The position numbers were made by a program, and so were the translations under genes. Shown piece by piece: positions 39,675 to 61,440 of a DNA stretch of 64,000 bases (position 1 is the stretch's first letter; each line of letters begins with the position of its first letter). Source of the stretch: Acidobacteria bacterium SCN 69-37 (GTDB taxonomy: Bacteria; Acidobacteriota; Vicinamibacteria; Vicinamibacterales; SCN-69-37); contig MEDJ01000024.1 of assembly GCA_001724025.1 (NCBI GenBank), positions 26,225-90,224 of the forward strand, read 5' to 3'. A model generated the notes under the pieces. That model worked only from the letters and a program-made list of their open reading frames with translations, was not told the origin of the DNA and did no database searches.

Positions 39675-39716
39675 ACTTCTCACTTCCCACTTCTCGGTTC
39701 CCACTTCTCACTTATC
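39675..39716. repeat. Heptamer tandem repeat (ACTTCyC)n, locus 1
   Basis: Six consecutive 7-base units: ACTTCTC, ACTTCCC, ACTTCTC, GGTTCCC, ACTTCTC, ACTTATC. More diverged units follow to about 39747. The same heptamer family occurs at 44108-44149. It lies in the gap between convergent genes (39627-39837). Confidence 0.85.
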
Positions 39717-39747
39717 CGAACGTCGAACTTCTGACTTCAAACTTCTA

Positions 39748-39839
39748 AGAGCGCGTTTCAAGACTCCGTCCTTCGCACCCTGGCGCCCCGCAGGGGCTGA
39801 AGCCCCTGCGCTCCATGGGAGAGTCTTGAAACGCACTCT
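39748..39839. repeat. REP hairpin nested in a 19-bp inverted repeat
   Basis: Outer arms AGAGCGCGTTTCAAGACTC (39748-39766) and GAGTCTTGAAACGCACTCT (39821-39839) match at 18 of 19 pairs. Inside lies the REP core GCAGGGGC-TGAA-GCCCCTGC. The right arm supplies the first bases of the stop codon of the 39838-40728 gene. A relative with similar outer arms lies at 54759-54893. It resembles a MITE or REPIN; no transposase is nearby. Confidence 0.8.
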
Positions 39840-44107: not shown

Positions 44108-44149
44108 ACTTCTTACTTCCCACTTCTGGCTTCCGGCTTCCGCGCTTGT
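44108..44149. repeat. Heptamer tandem repeat, locus 2
   Basis: Six 7-base units in register: ACTTCTT, ACTTCCC, ACTTCTG, GCTTCCG, GCTTCCG, CGCTTGT, then CTTATCC. It belongs to the same family as 39675-39716. It abuts the TAA stop of the ABC ATPase gene. Confidence 0.8.
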
Positions 44150-49850: not shown

Positions 49851-49955
49851 CGGAGCCCTGGGGCTTCAGCCCCAGGGAAATTTCCCCGAGGCTGAAGCCT
49901 CGGGGCTCCGACAGAAGCCTCGGGGCTCCGGCGAAAATCCTCGGGATTTCGGCCT
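49851..49955. repeat. REP-like palindromic cluster
   Basis: Hairpin CCCTGGGGC-TTCA-GCCCCAGGG is followed by its inverted partner CCCCGAGGC-TGAA-GCCTCGGGG. Partial GCCTCGGGGCTCCG copies follow to about 49955. GGAGC/GCTCC tags flank. It precedes the NrdR boxes. A GGCAGCGGGCAGCGGGC low-complexity run (49812-49840) lies on its left, resembling runs at 25977-25998 and 54224-54290. Confidence 0.85.
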
Positions 49956-59106: not shown

Positions 59107-59532
59107 GGTTGTCCTTCCCCTGTCGATGTCGCGCGTCAGGGCGGGCACAGCCCGCCCCTGCCCTGTCTCGCGGACGGGCGCCGCGCGGCCGCGACCGGCT
59201 GTCGATGACGTCAGGCATGCAGCGGAACCATGGCGACCAGCAGCATGGCGACAAGCCACGCCCACAAGCCCCCGGACACACGGCTCTGGAAGCCCACGCC
59301 CCACCAGACGAGTGCCGGCAGCAGACACCCGCGGGGAATGCCGCGCTGCCATTGGCTCGCTGAGCTCGAGTTTCAACAGAACGATGCGCCTGAAAGGCGC
59401 GGGCGTCTATGTCAGCGCCTGAATTTGCTCTGAAAAAGCCTGAAAGCGGTCGCGCCAGGCCGCCCGCGCCGCCGACCGGGTGTCGCCGACGATGCGCGTC
59501 GAGGAGGAGCAGGCGGCCGACGACTCCTGGCC
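59107..59532. other. Leader and spacer DNA without a recognised gene
   Basis: This stretch holds the upstream region of the 56242-59106 gene. Candidate open frames on both strands have Arg/Pro-rich products without recognisable motifs or a ribosome-binding site. No hairpin cluster or riboswitch block was found. Confidence 0.5.
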
Positions 59533-59840
59533 GGTGTCACGCCCTTGTCGAGGTGGTGACAGCGATCACTTTGCGCGGTGCCTCGGCCTTCCTGCTCCGC
59601 GACCACGACCTTCTGCGAGTGGTGCCAGCACCTTTCTCGACGCCGGTCACGAGTCATTCGAAGTGGTGCCAGCAGTCGCTGCGACCACTGTCACGGGGGA
59701 TTCGCACCACGGCCACGACCTCGTCGAGGTGGTGCCAGCACCTGTTCGAGGTGGTGCCACCACCCTTTTGATCCGGTGCCACCACTCTTTCGATCTGGTG
59801 CCACGACCTCGTCGATCCGGTGCCGAAAACCTGAACGCCG
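59533..59840. repeat. 22-bp periodic repeat array, class A
   Basis: Fourteen consecutive 22-base units start at 59533, 59555, 59577 and so on in exact register to 59819. The consensus begins GGTGCCAC-n-ACC and carries TCGA at offset 15. Strong copies start at 59533, 59621, 59731, 59753, 59775 and 59797; weaker ones at 59599, 59643 and 59709 keep the phase. Each unit contains near-dyad symmetry (GGTGGTG-C-CACCACC). A period of 22 is not a multiple of three, arguing against coding. Confidence 0.85.
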
Positions 59841-59887
59841 TATCGTGTTGAATTCGAGGCACTTACAGCTCGAAATTCCGGACCGAG

Positions 59888-60124
59888 AATTCCCGGTCGC
59901 TGTGGATCGACAAACCGGTGACACCCCGTCGCGATCCCGGTCGCCGTGGTTTCAATTCCCGGTCGCGGTGGTTTGCCGGTCAGCTGACGTGCCGCGCGAT
60001 CCCGGTCGCTGTGGATCGCATTCCCGGTCGCCGTGGTTTGTCACCAACGTGGCGCGCCGCGAATTCCCGGTCGCTGCGGATCGAGAGACCGGTCGCCGTG
60101 GATCGCGATCCCGGTCGCACCGGT
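59888..60124. repeat. 22-bp periodic repeat array, class B
   Basis: Eight clear copies of a 21-22-base unit with core TCCCGGTCGC followed by GTGGATCG or GTGGTTTG. The CCCGG element lies at 59892, 59936, 59958, 60001, 60023, 60066, 60088 and 60110, that is, steps of 22 or 43-44. Gaps of one unit hold diverged DNA (GCTGACGTGCCGCGC, ACCAACGTGGCGCGCCGC) giving a higher-order period of 64-65. It follows class A after two diverged units. An open frame crosses it, but its product is Arg-rich and unlike proteins. Confidence 0.85.
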
Positions 60125-60268
60125 ACCGCGCGGCGCTGACGCGGTTCGAAGAGGTGGTGGCAGTGGACCGAATGCGATCGAACCGCGCCCGCGATCGATC
60201 GAGTCGTGTACGCGACGACGCCCGGCGTCCGGCAAAACCGCGAGGTGACCTGCGACCGTGAGCGCCGT

Positions 60269-60324
60269 GGAGCCCCGGACCTTCAGGTCCGGGGAAGTTC
60301 CCCGGGTCTGAAGACCGGGGCCCC
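60269..60324. repeat. REP-like palindromic unit overlapping sialidase 3' end
   Basis: Hairpin CCCCGGACC-TTCA-GGTCCGGGG is followed by the inverted partner CCCCGGGTC-TGAA-GACCGGGG. The stop codon and last dozen codons of the sialidase gene (60283) lie inside this unit. Confidence 0.85.
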
Positions 60325-61440
60325 ATGCAGCCACCGGCTCGCAAGGCGCGCGAAAGTGATGCGCTCGTACGGGGTCCGGTCACCGCGTTCGTACAGCAGA
60401 CCGAGCGTGTCGTCGGAGATGGCGACCAGACTCGAGTACGCCGATGGCCCCTCGTGAACGATGCGCGAGACCTGCCAGCTCCTGCCGTCGTCGTCGCTCA
60501 CGCGCACCGTCATGCGGACGCGCGAGGCGGCTGCGGGATTGGAGAAGGCGAGCCGCGCACGTCCGCCCGCGATCGGCCATCGCACCAGGCTGGCCTGCGC
60601 CGGCGGTTCGATCAGGACGGCGTCGCCCTCCGCCCGGGACAGCGTCCGGCCGCCGTCGTCGCTGATGGCGACCTGCCTGACGTTCACGGGTTTCGGCGGA
60701 TGGTTGCGCATGTTCAACATGAGGCGGCCGTCCGACAGTTCCGCGATCTGGCTTTCGTTCGTCCCTGGATCGGCGATCCCGCCAATCGTCCAGGTCGATC
60801 CGCCGTCGTCACTGTAGATGACGTGCGACCGATGGATCCCGGTGTGCGCCTCCGCGTGATTGGCAGGAATCACCAGGCGCCCGGCCGTCGTCTGGATTCC
60901 CACACCGGGTCCCGTGGCATACCACGTCCAGTCGGACCGCTTCGTCGACGCGGTGACCTCCACGGGGGGTGACCAGGTGACGCCGTTGTCGTCGCTCCGC
61001 ATGAGCCAGACCGTGCGCGTGCCGCCGGCCTCCCCGGCAATGATGGCCGACTCGCGATCGACGCCACGGTTGTGCGTGGTGAAGAGCCAGATCGTTCCTG
61101 TCGAGGCATCGACGACCGGGCACGGATTGCCGAACGTGTTCGGCCCGTTGTCGCCGATGACGGTCAGCGCCGACCAGGTCAGGCCGCCGTCGGTGCTGCG
61201 CTTCATCACGAGATCGATGTCGCCCGAGTCGCTCGCGTTGGCCTGCCGGCCTTCCGCGAACGCGAGCAGCGTCCCGTCTGGCGCGGCGACGATCGATGGG
61301 ATGCGATACGTGTGGTAGCCGCCCTCTCCAGCGACGTACACGTCGACCTGGACCGGTTCCGACACCGCCAGCGATGGCGTCTGGGCGTACGCGACCAGCG
61401 TGCTCAGCGCCACCACGATGATGGCTGACAGGCTCCTCAT
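60283..61440 (-). CDS. Exported exo-alpha-sialidase (BNR/Asp-box)
   Basis: A 385-residue glycoside hydrolase. A signal peptide (SAIIVVALSTLVAYAQ) precedes the sialidase arginine-motif region YHTYRIPSIV near residue 45. Asp-boxes appear as STDGGLTW, SDDNGVTW, SDDGGSTW and SDDGGRTL. Further catalytic candidates are the Glu in AFAEGR and Asp in GDIDLV. It would release terminal sialic acids from glycans. The last residues (PVFRPGELPRT) are encoded by a palindromic repeat, so the native C-terminus was probably replaced. It is translationally coupled to the Kelch gene by an ATGA overlap. Confidence 0.9.
   Translation of the reverse strand: MRSLSAIIVVALSTLVAYAQTPSLAVSEPVQVDVYVAGEGGYHTYRIPSIVAAPDGTLLAFAEGRQANASDSGDIDLVMKRSTDGGLTWSALTVIGDNGPNTFGNPCPVVDASTGTIWLFTTHNRGVDRESAIIAGEAGGTRTVWLMRSDDNGVTWSPPVEVTASTKRSDWTWYATGPGVGIQTTAGRLVIPANHAEAHTGIHRSHVIYSDDGGSTWTIGGIADPGTNESQIAELSDGRLMLNMRNHPPKPVNVRQVAISDDGGRTLSRAEGDAVLIEPPAQASLVRWPIAGGRARLAFSNPAAASRVRMTVRVSDDDGRSWQVSRIVHEGPSAYSSLVAISDDTLGLLYERGDRTPYERITFARLASRWLHGAPVFRPGELPRT

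Follow-up and report, generated by a model that had tools for sequence, protein, structure and literature searches.

Plasmid iteron arrays, such as the 22-bp iterons of R6K, are tandem repeats bound by a dedicated DNA-binding protein. Insertion sequences of the IS21 family carry multiple terminal repeats that serve as IstA sites; these are degenerate, arranged in tandem 21-24 bp apart and inverted between the two ends (PMC10122671, PMC11208146). In IS5376, the repeats are 23 bp apart; a single IstA protomer contacts each repeat with its two helix-turn-helix domains, at two conserved blocks about one turn apart (PMC10122671). BrickBuilt of Porphyromonas gingivalis is a minisatellite-bearing MITE with 23-nt units and 19 intergenic copies, built as one direct array with a leader and a tail and with IS5-like terminal inverted repeats (PMC4596501). 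REP/REPIN elements with their RAYT transposase are also dispersed intergenic palindromic repeats. Here we analyzed a locus, E1, for which the initial annotation knew of no described element. That statement was too strong in view of the degenerate tandem repeats of IS21 ends (PMC10122671) and the published 23-nt minisatellite MITE (PMC4596501), and E1 is a real repeat element, a variant of two kinds, minisatellite-bearing MITEs and transposon-end repeats. Our literature search returned no earlier description of an E1-type repeat element.

E1 is located in a 64-kb window (the whole stretch of DNA that was analyzed), where a segment of about 590 bases, 59533-60124, had been described as having an almost strict 22-base pitch. 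Autocorrelation of this segment confirmed the pitch, because the lag-22 identity was 0.484, the highest of all lags up to 139 and far above chance (mean of lags 2-139, 0.269; sd 0.039), and no other spot within the window approached this value. The segment proved to lie inside a longer homologous element, whose ends we set where identity with a second copy on contig C21 starts and stops (Table 1). The exact register proposed for the 14 units of class A was also confirmed with a unit profile, in which 13 of the 14 units scored more than 9 bits, every one at phase 0. The class B units, for which steps of 22 and 43-44 and a 64-65 period had been noted, were found at steps of 22, 22, 22, 17 + 26 (= 43), 22, 43, 22, and 22, and the TRF period in this region was 65. 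The core between the two regions contains a weak imperfect palindrome, GAATTCGAG..CTCGAAATTC, whose stability was no higher than that of shuffles.

Table 1. Coordinates of E1 and its parts in the window, and locations of the other arrays that reached the threshold at period 22
Feature	Position	Strand	Basis or score
Complete E1, 647 bp (left array and core, followed by the inverted right array and a terminal inverted unit)	window, 59529..60175	.	homology with the C21 copy; flanks unrelated
Left arm, class A, with 14 units at an exact 22-bp phase; unit 1 only partly within E1	window, 59524..59831	+	
Core between the arms, no clear unit	window, 59832..59892	.	
Right arm, class B units, read as inverted-orientation members of the same family; steps 22, 43, 65	window, 59893..60118	+	
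Terminal unit, inverted A unit also scoring as B unit	window, 60152..60175	-	21.1 bits as A (minus), 8.3 as B (plus)
Array E2	C21		
Array E3	C19:194 kb		
Array E4	C9:120 kb		
Array E5	C24:186 kb		
Array E6	C9:220 kb		
Array E7	C1:339.5 kb		
Array E9	C1:51.8 kb		

Judged from the units that bridge them, the two repeat classes of the initial annotation are a single family in opposite orientation, so that E1 consists of 14 units, a centre of about 60 bp, and then about 9-10 inverted units. The terminal unit, which was outside the training set, still scored 21 bits as an inverted A unit and was also recognized as a B unit (8.3 bits in E1 and 13.6 bits in the C21 copy). These two readings imply one register, which ranks first among the 44 possible A-versus-B registers, and an odd unit at 59915 agrees with it. 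When the bridge units were included in a permutation test, the inverted arrangement of the E1 arms had P = 0.003 and was clearly better than the direct orientation. The assignment to one family rests on the bridge units, because the comparison of A with B alone, leaving them out, was not significant (P = 0.13). The outer ends of E1 are one unit in opposite orientation.

The near-full second copy, E2, at L065:5860-6440 on C21 was 82% identical to E1 overall and 98% identical over the right 185 bp. The flanks of the two copies are unrelated; E1 is situated between genes for a DUF7133/cytochrome c protein and a BNR protein, and E2 between DUF6454 and OPT transporter genes. The search for a conserved neighboring protein gene, suggested in the initial annotation, found none. 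No transposase gene was present inside or adjoining either copy, no replication or partition gene adjoined them, and neither a 5-bp target duplication nor TG..CA termini were seen at their boundaries. In an empty-site comparison with the same-genus genome, the gene order differed there. In addition to E2, a left-arm remnant of 99 bp with 74% identity and five units still in phase was found on C9, and a right-end remnant on C3. Between E1 and E2, the left arm changes in length by one 22-bp step and the right arm by steps of about 21 and 65 bp, with about one single base of difference in addition. Because these 22-, ~21-, and 65-bp steps shift any reading frame between copies, a coding repeat protein was rejected and the initial view that coding is unlikely was supported. 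E1 shares the general MITE features of small size, no coding capacity, and several intergenic copies; the general MITE feature of a target duplication was not seen at E1 or E2. Differences were uneven across the left-arm units, with 13 of the 29 counted changes between E1 and E2 concentrated in two units, and this pattern suggests conversion between units. Directly to the right of the C21 copy (L065:6511-6675) is an element of about 165 bp with long inverted ends (TAGTGTCCTGACTCAGAGATTCGC... and its complement), which looks like a classical MITE.

To describe such arrays beyond E1, 2.1 Mb of the genome (about half) was folded at all periods of 16 to 41 that are not multiples of three, with a score of at least 0.5 as the array threshold, and the genome outside this portion was searched by BLAST, models, and patterns only. 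Eight loci reached the threshold at period 22 and belong to several sequence subfamilies (Table 1). Periods 23-41 gave at most three weak matches each, and periods 16, 17, 19, and 20 gave further matches, some of which were apparently low-complexity or shorter repeats on inspection. A pattern search of the same genome, which yielded 20 matches versus 0 for the reversed pattern, revealed two more arrays at C17:44.8 kb and C8:82 kb. Eight arrays in about half of the genome would extrapolate to a total of some fifteen or more. The better-resolved arrays have two inverted arms around a core of 60-100 bp; E6 and E7 were resolved as a single arm only. In the arm orientation test, none of 400 permutations was as good as the inverted arms of E9, E3 gave P = 0.06, and E4 was ambiguous. 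According to a simple ORF scan, the arrays sit in intergenic gaps between unrelated genes. E4 and E5 share 91% identity over 578 bp and differ in length by one 22-bp unit and one single base, and E3 is about 80% identical over the core. A core motif common to all arrays was sought, and similarity was significant only between close copies and weakly between E1 and E5 (P = 0.013 among 28 pairs). An IS5-type transposase gene starts at the expected core position of E7 at a contig end (C1:339690-340000; L177:19690-20000), and E7 may be interrupted by this gene. Beside the left arm of E3, a TPP riboswitch was detected by Rfam (L212:13747-13866; 48 bits, just below the gathering score).

Length changes between copies were mostly whole-unit steps. 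Together with the patchy homogenization of units and the remnants, such unit-sized indels would be left by a neutral minisatellite: slippage would have multiplied a 22-bp seed, which was then inverted a single time and duplicated through recombination, and the array would now be decaying without a bound protein. We consider this history rather unlikely, since a single period recurs in several unrelated-looking subfamilies when the other non-triplet periods from 23 to 41 gave so few matches, and since the two-arm layout recurs as well.

We compared the arrays with IS21-family ends, to which a motif search seeded with GTGATCG, taken from arrays of this genome, had led. A sequence stitched from units of the pattern search matched six Bradyrhizobium plasmids, and in three of three loci opened the match was 126-147 bp upstream of an annotated istA. 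All 13 IS21 elements checked had degenerate tandem repeats upstream of istA, with spacings of 23 bp in ten elements, 21 bp in two, and 24 bp in one; each element has about three to five such units, and at many right ends the same is seen in inverse orientation. These repeats were clearly above shuffles in 12 of the 13 elements and only just so in one (L332). Scored against the IS21 repeat consensuses, ten of ten arms were above shuffled units, each of them weakly (P 0.025-0.30) and with arms of the same subfamily being non-independent, and the opposite strand never scored better. GATC is enriched in all ten arms, and GATC and TTCC/TTTC blocks are present in many IS21 ends as in the arrays. On the other hand, the arrays have about 8-15 recognizable units per arm at a pitch of 22 bp rather than mostly 23, and the arms are separated by a short core. 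Furthermore, tblastn of the 2.1 Mb found no istA or istB adjoining any array and detected only one IstA-like fragment and an istB end located where a contig begins. In every arm, the strand matching the IS21 repeats is directed from the core outward or the two strands tie, with small differences; the core side would thus correspond to the transposon terminus, which is opposite to a simple IS21 MITE. Because of this inside-out polarity and because there is no adjoining istA and no IS21 termini or target duplication, we do not claim membership of the IS21 family; by analogy, E1 would work like an array of transposase-end sites. At C20:37130-39300 (L217:17130-19300), the first repeats of a CRISPR array (repeat GGTGCATCCCCGCGAGCGCGGGGGAATC) directly adjoin an IS21-like transposase fragment.

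The reading we prefer, with about even confidence, is that E1 is a dispersed non-coding MITE-like repeat composed of back-to-back degenerate 22-bp arrays of putative transposase-type binding sites with a short core. Each unit would most likely be bound by a DDE transposase of the IS21/Mu/Tn7 type, and the pitch of about 22 bp would arise because the paired helix-turn-helix domains of each protomer read two blocks separated by about one turn. We infer a binding protein, earlier mobilization of the element in trans by a transposase, and subsequent expansion and contraction of the arrays through unequal recombination between units. Of the architectural binding array proposed initially, an array of protein sites remains the best reading and its non-coding nature is retained; the two classes and the placement of the sites on one face of the helix were not upheld. 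B-DNA has 10.5 bp per turn, so 22 bp is not exactly two turns, and each step rotates the next site by about 34 degrees, with the result that the sites leave one face. Plasmid iterons are likewise tandem repeats near 22 bp, and the arrays differ from them in having no adjacent replication gene and several chromosomal copies. The arrays resemble BrickBuilt in their short units without spacers, the lack of a transposase, many intergenic copies, and restriction to a species, and differ in their two inverted degenerate arms and in that no IS5-like ends were seen (PMC4596501). BrickBuilt shows that the spread of short-unit arrays in such a way is possible (PMC4596501).

The strict phase kept in diverged units, the same layout across several subfamilies, and the intergenic positions would also be expected if the units were operators for a host DNA-binding protein of the nucleoid, segregation, or replication type, whose binding to paired outward arms would build a symmetric nucleoprotein complex. 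The tendency of E1/E2 substitutions to fall outside conserved columns (Spearman -0.47, P = 0.03) is also consistent with this alternative. We regard it as possible but unlikely, because the neighboring genes are unrelated, the arrays of one genome differ widely in sequence, and the same-genus genome and other relatives contained no array detectable by BLAST, models, or pattern, searches that would miss diverged units. Indeed, BLAST and models overlooked other array subfamilies even within the same genome; direct folding of relatives covered 0.38 Mb. The profile search with the two unit models, proposed in the initial annotation, gave a best E of about 3e-5 among 298 relatives, and the inspected matches were chance-like and without a 22-bp pitch. 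Similarly, BLAST of array E5 against 396 relatives found no array at the matches inspected, and phage, plasmid, and viral collections queried with the E1 sequence or core gave no match. A pattern search of the phylum identified candidate 22-bp arrays in other genomes, including G037, G158, G135, G033, G148, and G339. Candidate near-exact 22-bp tandem arrays were noted in other genomes of the phylum (G091:C73:13757-13851, G393:C131, G315:C9:332343, and G240:C127:60272; e.g. GTGATCGAGGTTGCACCGACTC). A Planctomycete match, GAATTGGTGCCAGGCAC, was rejected as a different element; several GAATTGGTGCCAGGCAC palindromes (GGTGCC/GGCAC), which are another kind of short repeat, occur in a Planctomycetaceae MAG (L091:80-340).

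With at least ten arrays in one genome, what appeared to be an isolated oddity becomes a recurring family with a testable reason for its 22-bp pitch. Should the units be transposase sites, the question is what long arrays without a transposase do to transposition of the IS21/Mu/Tn7 type in the host, whether as substrate, decoy, or immunity. It is quite improbable that the arrays form a genome-wide class of symmetric 22-bp site arrays, with an outward-facing arm on either side of a core, that the host maintains as decoys for transposases or as sites of target immunity, or that they are a new kind of chromosomal binding array with many sequence variants per genome. Such arrays escape standard gene annotation, and sequence search connects close copies only; a simple fold-at-22 scan detects them.

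The initial annotation also raised a small-RNA array, in which the core would be a divergent promoter and each arm would be transcribed into repeat RNAs. The inverted arms do share one sense outward, and RNA folding showed excess stability (z -4.4 for E1, and -3.0 and -5.2). However, this excess is what inverted repeats would give, the dyads have no one constant centre, no Rfam family matched over the array, no promoter-like site was found, and terminator-like sites were few (two versus 0.5 in shuffles; sd 0.9). We therefore consider this idea very unlikely. Two sub-threshold Rfam matches, mir-665 and CRISPR-DR29, were rejected, as both fall on a separate hairpin at 60261-60331 outside the array and are explained by it. 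This strong double hairpin (GGAGCCCCGGACCTTCAGGTCCGGGG...), just to the right of E1, resembles the REP palindromes around the RAYT gene and is thus probably a REPIN. The genome encodes one REP-associated tyrosine transposase (Y1_Tnp) at C1:290286 (L142:1189-2133), with several flanking REPs of two related types (CCCTGGGGCTTCAGCCCCAGGG and CCCCGAGGCTGAAGCCTCGGGG). Mobilization of the arrays by this RAYT was rejected because its flanking REPs (CCCTGGGGCTTCAGCCCCAGGG and similar) are different and unrelated. A REP half similar to those around the RAYT gene is located at 49895-49945 of the window. Short tandem repeats with 7-bp units (ACTTCTC/ACTTCCC; AGTAAGA) were also observed at 39675-39748 and 44108-44147 of the window and, on the same contig, at L149:14291-14380.
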